DNA of 51,439 nucleotides. It comes from Treponema sp. (GTDB lineage Bacteria > Spirochaetota > Spirochaetia > Treponematales > Breznakiellaceae). Numbering within the stretch: the stretch's first letter is position 1; each line of letters starts with the position of its first letter. Under the pieces are notes generated by a model. The model was not told where the DNA came from. It was given only the letters and a program-made list of their open reading frames with translations, and did not search any database. Position numbers and translations under genes: made by a program. Location: positions 1 through 51,439 of the forward strand of contig WQYB01000011.1 in the NCBI GenBank assembly GCA_009781475.1, written 5' to 3'. Positions 2,305 to 33,330 of this stretch are shown in pieces.

Positions 2305-3639
2305 ATGGCTAATCCCATAATTGGAATGTTTAGGATAAAAGAATTGCGCGAGCGCATCCTCTTTACTTTCGGAATGCTTGTAGTATTCCGAATTGGCGCA
2401 GTATTTCCCATTCCAGGAATAAATGTAACCGTACTTAAAAATTATTTTGATATGGGAAGTTCCGGCGGAGGAAATCCGATTGTAAATTATCTTGACTTCT
2501 TCGCAGGCGGCGCATTCTCAAACTTCTCCGTATTCATGCTTGGGATTATGCCTTATATCTCTATGTCAATTATTATGCAGCTTTTATTAATTGTTTTTCC
2601 AAGTTTGAAAAAAATATCGCAAGAAGACGGCGGACGCAAAAAAATCCAGAAATGGCAGCGCTACGGAACAGTAGTTGTCTGTTTAATTCAATCATTTGCC
2701 GTTACTCAATACGCAAGAATGATTGACGGAAGTACTCCCGAACCGCTTTTAAATGTTCCTATGACGTATTTTACATTGATTGCCATGCTTACTGTTACAA
2801 CAGGAACAATGTTCCTTATGTGGATAGGTGAACAAATAACCAAAAGAGGTGTCGGTAATGGTATTTCATTATTGATTTTCGCAGGTATTGTCGCCCGTTT
2901 GCCTGTAGCAATTATCGAATTATTCGGTCTTATGAGACGAAACGAAATTAATCCTGTTTTTGTTATTATTGTTCTTGTCATGTTCGTAGGAATTGTAGCG
3001 TTGGTTGTTTTTGAACAGCAAGGACAGCGCAAGATTCCTGTTAATTATGCGAAAAGGGTAGTCGGCAGAAAAATGTACGGAGCGCAGAATATTTATATTC
3101 CGTTTAAAATTAATCCGTCCGGTGTTATTCCTGTAATTTTCGCTTCATCAATTTTGATGTTTCCATTGCAGATTGCCCAATCTGTAGGAGGTAATTTCCC
3201 GTGGCTTGCTACTATATCGAACTGGTTAAATCCACTGGGAGTTTTTTATAATGTACTTTATGTAATACTCATTGTTTTCTTCGCATATTTTTATACACAG
3301 GTTACTTTAAACCCGATAGAAATAGCGAAACAAATAAGGGAAAATGGCGGTTCCATTCCCGGGATTAGAACTGAACGTATTGAAGAATATCTTACAAAAA
3401 TCCTGAACCGTATCGTACTGCCTGGAGCGCTATATTTGGCGTTTATAGCAGTCACCCCAACACTTATACAATTAGCATTCAGGATACCGGCTTCGATTGC
3501 TTTCCTTATGGGCGGTACTTCACTTCTCATTATGGTTGGTGTAGGGCTTGATACCATGAAGCAAATTGAAGGATTGTTAAAGATGCATCACCATGAAGGT
3601 TTGGTGAAGCGCGGAAAATTACGCGGAAGGAACTTGTAA
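2305..3639 (+). CDS. secY: Protein translocase subunit SecY
   Basis: SecY is the channel-forming subunit of the SecYEG translocon in the inner membrane. The 444 residues contain about ten hydrophobic segments. Signatures include FAGGAFSNFSVFMLGIMPYI near residue 70, the cytoplasmic loop QQGQRKIPVNYAKR, and the C-terminal loop GGSIPGIRTERIEEYL. The start abuts the rplO stop. The adk, map and infA genes that often follow secY are absent here, and rpmJ follows instead. Confidence 0.98.
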   Translation: MANPIIGMFRIKELRERILFTFGMLVVFRIGAVFPIPGINVTVLKNYFDMGSSGGGNPIVNYLDFFAGGAFSNFSVFMLGIMPYISMSIIMQLLLIVFPSLKKISQEDGGRKKIQKWQRYGTVVVCLIQSFAVTQYARMIDGSTPEPLLNVPMTYFTLIAMLTVTTGTMFLMWIGEQITKRGVGNGISLLIFAGIVARLPVAIIELFGLMRRNEINPVFVIIVLVMFVGIVALVVFEQQGQRKIPVNYAKRVVGRKMYGAQNIYIPFKINPSGVIPVIFASSILMFPLQIAQSVGGNFPWLATISNWLNPLGVFYNVLYVILIVFFAYFYTQVTLNPIEIAKQIRENGGSIPGIRTERIEEYLTKILNRIVLPGALYLAFIAVTPTLIQLAFRIPASIAFLMGGTSLLIMVGVGLDTMKQIEGLLKMHHHEGLVKRGKLRGRNL

Positions 3640-26675: not shown

Positions 26676-27029
26676 CTATTCCCGTTTTTTTCCTTCATCT
26701 TCTTGTTCTTTTAAAAGTTTTACCATTTTAATCGCAAGACGCCTGTTTACAGAGTTTAGCTTTTCGGCAATATCGACTAATAATTGTATTTCTAGTGGTA
26801 ATAGTTGAAAATCTTTCTTTTTCTTTTCTTCAGAACCAGTAACAAGATACTCTACAGAAACTCCCAATGCACGAGCGATTTTTACCGCATTTTCAACATT
26901 TGGCAATGTTTTTTTTGTGTTTAGATAGTTGTCGAGTGTATGTTTCTTAATTTTTGTTATTACGGATAATTCTTTAACCATAACACCTTTATAAATCAAT
27001 TCAGATTTTAAATTTTCCTTAAATCCCAT
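26676..27029 (-). CDS. XRE-family repressor
   Basis: 117 residues. The helix-turn-helix is at residues ~14-60 (KGVMVKELSVITKIKKHTLDN, LPNVENAVKIARALGVSVEYL), with a Lys-rich linker and a C-terminal helix (LEIQLLVDIAEKLNSVNRRL). The domain order resembles small phage-type or island repressors. It faces the LPP20-like gene across a 131-bp region with repeated TATTCTTA half-sites and an 18-bp palindrome. It most likely represses its own gene and that operon. No Shine-Dalgarno sequence precedes its ATG. Confidence 0.88.
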   Translation of the reverse strand: MGFKENLKSELIYKGVMVKELSVITKIKKHTLDNYLNTKKTLPNVENAVKIARALGVSVEYLVTGSEEKKKKDFQLLPLEIQLLVDIAEKLNSVNRRLAIKMVKLLKEQEDEGKKRE

Positions 27030-29078: not shown

Positions 29079-30125
29079 ATGAAAAAGACATTATTCATTT
29101 TGCTTGCAATTTTCGCATGTATCGGGTCATACCCCGTAGTTTTCGCACAACAGCAGCCTGTAGTTGCAGTTGCTCCCTTTGAAGCGACATCCGGTATTAC
29201 AACTGCAGAAGCGAATATGATAACCCGTGTGTTTTTTATTCGTTTGGGTAATACCAACAGTGTAAGTTTAGTTGATCGCGCTGTAGTTGAAAGAACAATT
29301 CAAGAACAGAATTTTCAAGCTGGTGACTGGTCAAACCCGCAGAAAACCGCAGAATTGAACGAAGGGTTAAATGCTAATTGGATCGTACGAGGTCAAATTG
29401 AAAGGTTTACAACAGATATTCTTGTAACAGTAGAATTTTACAATGTTAGTACATTCAGGTTTATGGGTGGGATAGATATTCGTATTGAAGATGCAGATGA
29501 AGCTTATGACAAAATGGATCCGATAGTGGATAGATTGATACAGACAATTGCAAGCTCCGGAACTAGACCGCAAACAACTGGAACAACAACCGGAAATTTG
29601 GCAAACAGAACATATAATATTGGAGACAGGGGACCTGCAGGAGGAATTATTTTTCATGACAGGGGATTTGTCGCTGATGGTTGGAGGTATTTAGAAGCTG
29701 CACCGACAGATTTTACCGCTCAATGGGGTTTAGCAGGTGTAAATGTAACCGGAACAGATGTAGCGATAGGAAGCGGTAAACGAAATACACAAATTATTGT
29801 TGATAGACTAAGACTAGCAAGTGAAAGCAATCGCGCGGCTCAAATTTGTGCTGCAATGGAGATTAACGGATTTAATGACTGGTTTTTACCAAGCAGAGAT
29901 GAATTGAATTTAATGTATATAAATCTAAGCCGAAGAGGATTAGGAGGTTTTGCTAGTAGTTGGTATTTATCTTCTTCGCAAAGTGTTTATAACACACATA
30001 GTAGGAGTGGAAGAGTTACTAGTACTAATTATTGCATGTGGAGTCAAAGGTTTAGCGATGGTTTTCAGAGCAACGCCGTCAGCAGGGGTAACGCATATTC
30101 AATTCGTGCCATCCGGGCTTTTTAA
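29079..30125 (+). CDS. Exported CsgG/LpoB-like protein with C-terminal DUF1566 lectin-fold domain
   Basis: 348 residues. A signal peptide (MKKTLFILLAIFACIGSYPVVFAQ) precedes a CsgG/LpoB/TolB-N-like domain at residues ~27-160 (VVAVAPFEATSGI, SLVDRAVVERTIQEQ, ANWIVRGQIERF). A Thr/Gly-rich linker leads to DUF1566 at ~185-348 (YNIGDRGPAGGIIFHDRGF, NGFNDWFLPSRDELNLMY, SIRAIRAF). DUF1566 is a C-type-lectin-like fold used by some retroelement-diversified proteins, and codon usage near the C-terminus supports that here. AGGAGG precedes the ATG. Confidence 0.85.
   Translation: MKKTLFILLAIFACIGSYPVVFAQQQPVVAVAPFEATSGITTAEANMITRVFFIRLGNTNSVSLVDRAVVERTIQEQNFQAGDWSNPQKTAELNEGLNANWIVRGQIERFTTDILVTVEFYNVSTFRFMGGIDIRIEDADEAYDKMDPIVDRLIQTIASSGTRPQTTGTTTGNLANRTYNIGDRGPAGGIIFHDRGFVADGWRYLEAAPTDFTAQWGLAGVNVTGTDVAIGSGKRNTQIIVDRLRLASESNRAAQICAAMEINGFNDWFLPSRDELNLMYINLSRRGLGGFASSWYLSSSQSVYNTHSRSGRVTSTNYCMWSQRFSDGFQSNAVSRGNAYSIRAIRAF
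29985..30092 (+). other. Candidate DGR variable region in the DUF1566 domain
   Basis: Codons 303-338 include long series differing from AAT, AAC or AAA only at A positions: GTT TAT AAC ACA CAT AGT, then GTT ACT AGT ACT AAT TAT, then AGC AAC GCC GTC AGC. GCC, GTC and AGC in a row are unusual for this AT-rich genome. This is what adenine-specific mutagenic retrohoming into a lectin-fold gene leaves behind. No reverse transcriptase or template repeat was found in the window. Confidence 0.5.
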
Positions 30126-30169: not shown

Positions 30170-30586
30170 TTAACTTCCAATGTAAGTTATAAAATCCGCA
30201 GGAGTCATGCAAAGAATGCTGGAAGGACTAAAATCACTTTTATTTCTCGTAATAATATGAGTAATACCATTTTCTTTAGCAACAGTATATTGAACAGCAT
30301 CCTCAAAATCTTTCCAGCGGAGACTCAAAGCATCAGCGATTGTTTTTTCAAAAACTGGAGCAATGGAGAAAAGATCGATAAGTTCATCCAGAATTATGTA
30401 TACTTCATTTGCATTATAACGATCCTTACGAAGCAAATAAAAAATATCGGTTATGGAAGCCGCAGACAAACATCCAATTATACGTTTCTGGTCAACAAGT
30501 TTAAAAATTTCATAAGCATCCTGATAAAAATCAGCGCGTTTCAAAACCATATCCAGAACAATATTTGTATCAACAAGAACTTTCAT
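30170..30586 (-). CDS. PIN-domain toxin (VapC-like)
   Basis: A 138-residue PIN-domain ribonuclease candidate. Acidic metal ligands are visible at Asp6 (MKVLVDTNIVLDMV), Asp96 (WKDFEDAVQYTVAKENG) and Asp118 (IITRNKSDF); the position usually held by Glu has Asp47 (ASITDIFYLL). It overlaps the upstream antitoxin by four bases (ATGA), the standard coupling. An internally deleted copy lies at 32900-33049. Confidence 0.9.
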   Translation of the reverse strand: MKVLVDTNIVLDMVLKRADFYQDAYEIFKLVDQKRIIGCLSAASITDIFYLLRKDRYNANEVYIILDELIDLFSIAPVFEKTIADALSLRWKDFEDAVQYTVAKENGITHIITRNKSDFSPSSILCMTPADFITYIGS

Positions 30587-30843
30587 TTTAAGTACTTTGC
30601 AAGCCTTTCAGCTCGGATTTCTTCAAGAGTTATATCACCTAGGTGTGATGCTATGCCCAGAAGTCTGTCTGCACGAGGTGTTGCTTGATTACTGCTTTCT
30701 GGTACGGGTTTATTTTGTGTCTCTATAACCGGAGTTACCTTAAATTCTACTTTCGCAGGCCCTGCCGGAATTTCCCTGGGAGCAAGAAATTCAAAAAATA
30801 CCCGATGGTCAGAAGGAATAGTTATCATTTGTTCCATAGTCAT
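30583..30843 (-). CDS. Antitoxin partner of the PIN toxin (copy A)
   Basis: 86 residues from ATG 30843 (MTMEQMITIPSDHRVFFEFL). An in-frame start at 30861 would lie upstream of the -10 box and is rejected. The N-terminus (IPSDHRVFFEFLAPREIPAG) resembles a swapped-hairpin DNA-binding arm. The C-terminus (LGDITLEEIRAERLAKYLK) would wrap the toxin. There is no Shine-Dalgarno sequence; the ATG follows TATAAT by six bases. A close paralogue (copy C) is at 33046-33330 and a more distant one at 31715-31975. Confidence 0.85.
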   Translation of the reverse strand: MTMEQMITIPSDHRVFFEFLAPREIPAGPAKVEFKVTPVIETQNKPVPESSNQATPRADRLLGIASHLGDITLEEIRAERLAKYLK

Positions 30844-30849
30844 AAGTTT

Positions 30850-30877
30850 ATTATACCACAAAAATTTAGAATGTTAA
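30850..30877 (-). promoter_or_regulatory. Leaderless promoter of antitoxin copy A
   Basis: On the minus strand: TTAACA (30872-30877), 16-bp spacer, TATAAT (30850-30855), six bases, ATG. Transcription should begin at or next to the start codon. The -35 box overlaps the Shine-Dalgarno sequence (AAGGAG) of the divergent gene at 30888. Confidence 0.7.
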
Positions 30878-30887
30878 GGAGTAAATC

Positions 30888-31667
30888 ATGAAAAAAGCTA
30901 TATTTTTTTCTTTAATCATTTTGCTGGGTTTCACATCCCTTTCAGCTTCTCCCACAAGCAGAGATCAACTGGTTGGGACATGGGTCGCCACAGTTGAATA
31001 TAATCGTTCATTCGACACCTATAGAATAAACCTTTCGGCAGACGGCAGTTGTGTTATTAAAATGACTAACGACAGAGCAGAGCAGGAAACAACAGGAAAC
31101 TGGTCATGGGATGGCACAATGTTACGAATTAATGCAATTTTTAGGAACGCAAGAATTACTTACCAAAACCATATTCAATGGACAAGCGTAGTAAATTTTA
31201 TTGATAACAATGCGTTTAACATTGTTGTAAGACCTGCCGTTAACGGCTCCCTTACACGTTTTACGTTTTTCAGGCAAGAAGGTTTTGACGAACAGGTTAT
31301 TAAGCAAGCTTTTGATTCATTATGCGAACATATTCCATTACGTTCTCGTATCGCCATTATCAATATTAGCGCATCAGATCCAGCCGAAGAAAATTATTAT
31401 CTTGATGAACTTACTCTTCTTTTTGTTAACTCAAGAAGATACACCATTGTAGACAGACGGGATATTAATGCAGTGTTAGCGGAACAAGATTTCCAATTAT
31501 CAGGTTATGTCGATGATGATGAAATTGTCTCAATTGGTAAATTTCTCAGCGCAAACGTGGTTATTACGGGAAACATCAGCGGTACAGGCTCGCAAAAAAG
31601 GTTGGTTATAAAAGCTATTGATGTTTTAACTGGCGAGATACTTGCGATGTCACCTATTTCACTTTGA
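30888..31667 (+). CDS. Exported protein, lipocalin-like N-terminus plus CsgG/FlgO-like C-terminus
   Basis: 259 residues with signal peptide MKKAIFFSLIILLGFTSLSA. Residues ~22-130 look like a small beta-barrel domain (QLVGTWVATVEY, NLSADGSCVIKMTNDRA, TTGNWSWDGTMLRI), as in lipocalin-type domains. Residues ~135-259 resemble the CsgG/FlgO-type nucleotide-binding-like fold (RSRIAIINISASDP, RRYTIVDRRDINAVLAEQDFQLSG, SANVVITGNISG). It shares that domain type with 29079-30125. AAGGAG precedes the ATG. It is divergent from antitoxin copy A. Confidence 0.78.
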   Translation: MKKAIFFSLIILLGFTSLSASPTSRDQLVGTWVATVEYNRSFDTYRINLSADGSCVIKMTNDRAEQETTGNWSWDGTMLRINAIFRNARITYQNHIQWTSVVNFIDNNAFNIVVRPAVNGSLTRFTFFRQEGFDEQVIKQAFDSLCEHIPLRSRIAIINISASDPAEENYYLDELTLLFVNSRRYTIVDRRDINAVLAEQDFQLSGYVDDDEIVSIGKFLSANVVITGNISGTGSQKRLVIKAIDVLTGEILAMSPISL

Positions 31668-32899: not shown

Positions 32900-33049
32900 T
32901 TAACTTTCAATGCAAGCTATAAAATCTTCAGGGCTCAAACATTTAATATCGGAAGTTTCATAATCACTTTTATTTCTGGTGATAATATGGGTAATACCAT
33001 TTTCTTTAGCAACAGTATATTGAACAGCATCAATAACAAGAACATTCAT
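32900..33049 (-). pseudogene. Internally deleted PIN toxin gene
   Basis: The 49-codon frame starts MNVLVIDAVQYTVAKENG, joining the first five residues of the PIN toxin directly to the region from Asp96 onward, and continues HIITRNKSDYE to a natural end. Compared with 30170-30586, about 90 residues are missing in frame, including Asp6 and Asp47. Translational coupling to its antitoxin (ATGA overlap at 33046-33049) is retained. The product cannot be an active PIN nuclease. Confidence 0.85.
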
Positions 33050-33330
33050 TTGAGATACTTATTAGTTAGTCTTTCTTCTCTGATCTTTTCTATAGTGATA
33101 TCGCCAACATGGGAAAGTATTCCTAAAAGAGAATCCGAAATGGGTGTGGCGGAGCCTTTAGAAAAAACAGAATCCTTACTAATATTTGGTTCAGGTTTGT
33201 TCTTTTTCTCTATAACCGGAGTTACCTTTAGTTCTACTTTCGCAGGTCCTGCCGGAATTTCCTTTGGTGCAAGGAATTCAAAAAACACCCGATGGTCAGA
33301 AGGTATAGTTATCATTTGTTCCATAGTCAT
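33046..33330 (-). CDS. Antitoxin (copy C) paired with the deleted PIN gene
   Basis: 94 residues, nearly identical to copy A over the first 45 (MTMEQMITIPSDHRVFFEFL, EIPAGPAKVELKVTP). It diverges through a Ser/Lys-rich middle and ends LGDITIEKIREERLTNKYLK-like, similar again to copy A. The ATG is six bases after TATATT. Its toxin is inactivated, so it may survive as an antitoxin against copy A's toxin or as a repressor. Confidence 0.82.
   Translation of the reverse strand: MTMEQMITIPSDHRVFFEFLAPKEIPAGPAKVELKVTPVIEKKNKPEPNISKDSVFSKGSATPISDSLLGILSHVGDITIEKIREERLTNKYLK

Follow-up and report, generated by a model that had tools for sequence, protein, structure and literature searches.

The 3' end of a gene for a predicted exported protein of Treponema sp. 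is probably a weathered orphan variable region (VR), left by a diversity-generating retroelement (DGR) that has been lost or that the assembly did not capture. The window analysed is the whole of contig C11 (51,439 nucleotides), one of the 216 contigs of a 3.29-Mb genome that is 93.3% complete and 5.0% contaminated. The last ~40 codons of the Lcl_C/DUF1566 domain are homologous to the VRs of genuine DGRs of the same genus, which possess a target, Avd, a template region (TR) and a reverse transcriptase (RT). The initial annotation, which had proposed a candidate DGR variable region here, is borne out in this respect.

The Target Gene and Its Neighbourhood

The target gene and the genes around it are as follows.

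29079-30125, forward strand: target gene, an open reading frame for a putatively exported 348-aa protein with a CsgG/TolB_N-like N-terminal part and a C-terminal Lcl_C/DUF1566 domain
26676-27029, reverse strand: divergent XRE-type (Cro/C1 HTH) regulator, Pfam HTH_26 and HTH_3, with 74% identity in L026/L080
27065-28315 and 28364-28948: two genes between the XRE regulator and the target
30170-30586, reverse strand: PIN-domain protein downstream of the target, Pfam PIN_3 at E 9e-21, with 70% identity beside the G009 orthologue
30583-30861, reverse strand: small partner of the PIN protein, without a Pfam match, with 68% identity in G009

The protein is predicted to be exported, its signal peptide having been judged by eye. 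Against Pfam, residues 251-346 match Lcl_C, the domain formerly named DUF1566, at E 7e-6, and TolB_N is matched at E 0.014, both below the respective cut-offs; among the homologues Lcl_C reaches the Pfam cut-off, as does CsgG in two of them. A profile of the target family matches PDB entries 8q4e/8qk8 over the C-terminal ~70 residues (E 7e-15), as against E 0.012 for the target sequence alone. Similar proteins are encoded at six loci in Treponema sp. and Spirochaetia metagenome-assembled genomes, relatives whose isolate prefixes we take to be those of termite-gut studies.

From its position, the small partner of the PIN protein is likely to be an antitoxin. A near-identical small protein (MTMEQMITIPSDHRVFFEFLAP...) is encoded at 33046-33330, also on the reverse strand, which makes this a repeated partner gene of a PIN type module. 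The window also encodes a CsgG-type protein at 30888-31667, whose homologues (56-60%) adjoin homologues of the target's N-terminal part in L186, L188 and L189; in L188 and L189 the target-type N-terminal part is joined to a different C-terminal domain.

DGRs of the Genus and Their Distant Targets

The RT domain (PF00078) was found in 11 of the 39 genus genomes searched, among which the window's own genome has none. One RT locus from each of the 11 genomes was scanned with the A rule for template/VR pairs, which were recovered at 9 loci and not at the other two (G027, G028). Across the nine pairs, 184/202 mismatches lie at template A, partly by construction, as few non-A mismatches were admitted. 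Three of the 39 genomes (G012, G020 and G059, at loci L074, L075 and L076) harbour a DUF1566-type DGR composed of target, Avd, AAC-rich template and RT, the G059 target being cut by a contig end. The Avd of these elements is 113 aa long (bAvd at E 3e-21 for G012), and their templates read WSSSQNN.NNAWNQ.F..G.QN.NNKNN...VRAVRGF or near, in the frame of the window protein's end; the frame common to their TRs and VRs is WSSSQ...AW.Q.F..G.Q....K....VRAVR.F. Near relatives of the RT (E <= 1e-40) occur in 12/291 genomes of the order, drawn from a larger group, and a search for a viral source of the cognate RT returned three IMG/VR contigs at 37-39% identity.

For each of the three templates, a matching target is likewise present on a different contig of the same genome. 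When VRs at ten loci were compared with their own templates, three (L167, L039, L043) did not fit. Mismatches lay at template A in 15/16 cases for the VR on G012 contig 18, 20/22 for that on G020 contig 42 and 19/25 for that on G059 contig 77, and in 17/21 cases for a G012 VR that shares the template's contig at a distance of 68 kb. The DUF1566 genes on G012 contigs 23 and 3 were misfits, with 22/38 and 20/45 mismatches at A, as was the gene on G020 contig 34, the alignment of which needed 19 gap codons.

Other VRs of the genus belong, as judged by eye, to a second, FGE-sulfatase-like DGR class (RGGSW...GFRLVR), seen at L094 (G009), L095 (G005), L096 (G023), L098 (G014) and L099 (G004). The DGR at L097 (G006:C9), with its VR at 2106-2203 and its TR at 3016-3113 on the reverse strand, has a VR ending in SASSSAHFCGVGNYGHSSSYYASSVGGVAPAF and falls outside both classes. 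Just past the DUF1566 DGR of G012, an FGE-like protein (L074 6436-7458) ends in RGGSWFNSAAYTHSVNRFSYIPFDRNHYIGFRLVRP and resembles the VRs of the other class.

A Probable Worn Variable Region at the End of the Target Gene

Three segments can be distinguished at the end of the target gene, all on the forward strand.

29970-30122: 3' end homologous to DGR VR/TR, from the conserved SSSQ start to the IRAIRAF end, as aligned with three templates and VRs
29982-30020: 13-codon insertion with no template counterpart, in its preferred placement, the exact place being uncertain
30021-30101: codons presumed variable in the worn VR, used in the third-letter tests, with 30042-30092 as the best-supported stretch

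The 3' half of the VR (30042-30092) aligns ungapped to the template region of G012, such that CAG AGC AAC GCC GTC AGC AGG GGT AAC in the window stands against CAG AAC AAC AAC AAC AAC AAG AAC AAC in the template. Compared with this foreign template, 23/41 A positions and 25/76 non-A positions differ (Fisher P 0.019). Apart from the non-A changes and the 13-codon insertion, the target protein has Leu in place of a Trp shared by at least 90% of 23 aligned homologues, and the VR thus appears worn. Two other DUF1566 genes, L034 and L035, are also long near the place of the insertion, and neither bears a footprint in the third-letter test.

The codons quoted in the initial annotation are present exactly as written. 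Its observation that most of them differ from AAT, AAC or AAA only at A positions holds insofar as T- or C-ending codons are enriched (26/36 in codons 303-338 vs 139/290 in codons 1-290, Fisher P 0.0075), but the criterion is weak, as any NNT or NNC codon qualifies. The run AGC AAC GCC GTC AGC is indeed unusual (P 3e-4 for five C-endings given the residues, uncorrected for the choice of run); over the 42 window ORFs, GTC makes up 74/882 Val codons and GCC 153/1045 Ala codons. As for the interval claimed to be variable (29985-30092), its 3' half is template-like, whereas its 5' part is not VR-like and corresponds to an insertion.

Third letters provide a further measure. At sites picked after viewing the family, 8/9 third letters in the window keep the template letter (P 0.0008), and at unselected sites 7/10 do so (P 0.024). 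Against the family letters, 14/20 agree with the preferred placement of the insertion (P 0.0026) and 12/20 with the other placement (P 0.027), and an automatic alignment gives 11/19 (P 0.04). Taken together, these comparisons suggest that the window VR weakly carries a DGR third-letter footprint. An ordinary DUF1566 loop with no history of DGR writing, owing its VR likeness to the shared fold and its C-ending run to chance, is an unlikely but serious alternative. The window P values are weak and dependent on the test (0.0008-0.04), the insertion and the many non-A differences fit such a loop, and runs of at least five NNC codons occur four times in the 42 window ORFs, the run above included. 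That the 3' half fits the template without a gap argues against it.

The Syntenic Orthologue in G009

Further evidence against a never-written loop comes from the orthologue in G009, which adjoins the same XRE regulator (74%) and the same PIN/partner pair (70% and 68%). The two proteins are 64% and 61% identical in the upstream parts; identity falls to 24% within the VR and is 86% across the final seven residues. The VR is the least conserved part between the two species, its alignment being loose owing to the insertion. It shows an excess of changes at codon positions 1 and 2 (41:24 vs 138:167, P 0.0096). At this same place, the G009 VR bears the footprint itself, keeping the template third letters at 10/13 picked sites (P 0.0066).

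A Footprint in Genomes Without the DUF1566-Type DGR

A total of 89 distinct open frames were collected. The 46 that satisfied a canonical motif were treated as VRs in the tests, a further 28, including the window and one template frame, were tested as non-canonical ends, and 15 were left out. The motif demands WSS and a bounded loop; it favours VR-like ends, excludes insertions and renders the leading Trp invariant by construction. Genomes without the DUF1566-type DGR contributed 38 of the VRs, which are not independent of one another, 11 of them being from G006. In these 38 VRs, diversity at codon positions 1, 2 and 3 is 0.67, 0.66 and 0.40 in the 14 template-Asn codons, and 0.20, 0.17 and 0.37 in the 24 other codons. 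With the letters of the three templates, unselected sites and codons resampled per residue, third letters match the template in 338/532 cases vs 185.7 expected (z 14.7, a value overstated because of the 11 VRs from G006). At 13 sites picked after the diversity profile, 28 of the 38 genes, in 14 genomes, reach P < 0.01. Permuting the letters over sites, a weaker and not decisive control, yields a mean of 244 and a maximum of 385 in 5000 permutations, against the observed 338. At site 6, the template-majority letter differs from the family letter.

Random first and second bases together with a retained third base read as the footprint of a template copied with errors at A, a cause favoured because selection at the protein level would not randomise the first two bases and spare the third. 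Another cause considered for this pattern, strong diversifying selection after a recent duplication, is judged less likely, since third-base diversity (0.40) is like that of the other sites (0.37) and only positions 1 and 2 are raised.

Among the 28 non-canonical ends, 7 reach P < 0.05 (the window, the template frame L065, L150, L166, L077-4456, L030 and L036). No significant excess is seen in the other 21, and the third-letter test therefore discriminates. The same 21 of 28 can also be counted in favour of a never-written loop. Third-letter totals are 212/501 for the non-canonical ends (161.2 expected) and 586/817 for the canonical genes (293.7 expected).

Neighbouring genes for exported DUF1566-ended proteins are clustered at L077 (G006:C20:1-10000), L078 (G006:C23), L079 (G003:C164), L081 (G015:C8) and L085 (G008:C20). 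Their tips are all different, many have a CsgG/TolB-like N-terminal part, and L077 alone holds seven such frames.

The Search for the Machinery

Within the window, the best 51-base template candidate under the A rule has 8 non-A mismatches and RT matches are at E 0.55 or worse, in agreement with the initial annotation, which had noted neither an RT nor a template repeat in the window. A possible Avd remnant there (E 0.004, 29 aa) was dismissed as chance, as it lies inside a 260-aa ORF for what is, by eye, a TatD-like nuclease. Searches of the whole assembly (3.29 Mb, 93% complete, 216 contigs) recovered no RT, Avd or template elsewhere in the genome. PF00078 gave 0 matches, and neither the RT nor the Avd of G012 had a match at E <= 0.01. 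With the window VR as query, only itself and short chance-like matches were returned from its own genome, and no template. The G012 and G020 templates found a VR on contig 64 as their sole template-like match in that genome; the G059 template stretch found four short matches and no template, the best of them ascribed to chance, since it falls within a coding frame of the other strand.

This second VR, at 1248-1366 of contig 64, keeps the template third letters at 12/13 picked sites and shows 8/74 non-A mismatches to the G020 template, where the templates of different species diverge at 11-12 of 74-75 positions. It suggests that the lineage of the window was touched by a DGR not very long ago. 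Its fresh look, along with the cross-contig VR/TR matches in G012, G020 and G059 and an assembly that is 93% complete in 216 contigs, would also accord with a live system, in which a DGR core present in the species, unassembled or on a mobile element, still writes, in trans, either the window gene or that on contig 64. We regard this as improbable. An active element is disfavoured because neither an RT nor an A-rich copy was found in this 216-contig, 93% complete assembly, where the TRs of G012, G020 and G059 have no template-like match besides the VR on contig 64. In addition, the wear of the window VR is too great for a recent copy of templates resembling the known ones. The initial annotation had left a choice between action at a distance and a frozen copy; remote VR/TR matches and core-less targets do occur in the genus, but no working system was found here.

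The wider genus also bears on a live system. Among the 11 genus genomes with completeness of 90% or more and contamination of 5% or less, the RT domain exceeds the threshold in 2, whereas template-like matches, some of them short repeat matches, occur in 10; the G012 RT at E <= 0.01 finds 3 of the 11, one of these a fragment. Given 10/11 against 2/11, assembly gaps are not the general answer. An RT stub beside a VR gene occurs in G032.

L175 of G032, 1769-1909 and 2021-2761, both on the reverse strand: 47-codon stub of a DGR RT and the VR gene whose stop it follows at 111 bases

Avd and template are absent between the VR gene and the stub, and no other match to them was found in this 71% complete assembly; the locus has the look of a DGR captured once a deletion had taken place. 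The likelier general cause of the missing core is therefore loss, although an assembly gap may apply in the genome of the window.

A Proposed History

For the window gene we favour a weathered orphan VR, with the following history. In an ancestor, a DUF1566-type DGR with Avd, an AAC-rich template RNA and an error-prone RT would have copied its template, inserting random bases at adenines. The resulting cDNA would have been written into the ends of exported DUF1566 proteins both near and far, including, we infer, the protein encoded in the window. In the window lineage the core would then have been lost, or else the assembly did not capture it. The tip, already diversified, may have been kept as a fixed C-type-lectin-like binding surface, later altered by drift and by the insertion.

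Extended to the genus, a tentative and rather doubtful reading is that a rare DGR is gained and lost, rewrites dispersed and tandem receptors in trans, and leaves a frozen library of DUF1566 tips, possibly recombined, until its next visit. If this were true, a rare element would shape the exported proteins of many species. More generally, the output of targeted hypermutation can outlast its machinery and be recognised by its codon footprint even where no RT is found. Orphan targets of this kind would escape surveys that take the RT as their starting point.

Comparison With Known Systems

A large DGR survey notes that its own approach would not detect remote targets (PMC8144416). In limited literature searches we found no report of CsgG/TolB-like proteins carrying the DUF1566 family in these treponemes, nor of an excess of DGR targets over elements in them. 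PDB 8q4e/8qk8 carry the entry name HbP1 and are tied, through the listing of PMC11162425, to the Legionella collagen-like protein Lcl; the C-terminal domain of Lcl belongs to a collagen-like adhesin and resembles the window family by profile match.

DUF1566 is a common DGR target domain (PMC6642488, PMC4159848). In the DGRs with DUF1566 targets described there, the VR is likewise at the C-terminal end of DUF1566, with a presumed C-type-lectin-like fold, but in these systems RT and TR accompanied the VR, whereas the genome of the window shows a VR-like end only. The DGRs of G012, G020 and G059 share the TR/VR frame of the window and differ from it in the presence of the core, which was not found in the window's genome; the window VR is set apart from them by its insertion and non-A differences.

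The closest precedent is T. denticola (Nimkulrat et al., 2016; PMC4891356). Its DGR is reported to have remote targets and to have undergone gains and losses, and some strains that lack both RT and TR contain VR-bearing genes, which were read as leftovers of lost DGRs. Orphan VRs and remote targets are features that T. denticola and this genus appear to share. The targets reported in T. denticola are all of the FGE-sulfatase type (TvpA), whereas the window's target is the DUF1566 domain of an exported CsgG/TolB-like protein. Since orphan VRs were already known from T. denticola, the unusual part is genus-wide, namely that VRs are far commoner than their element.
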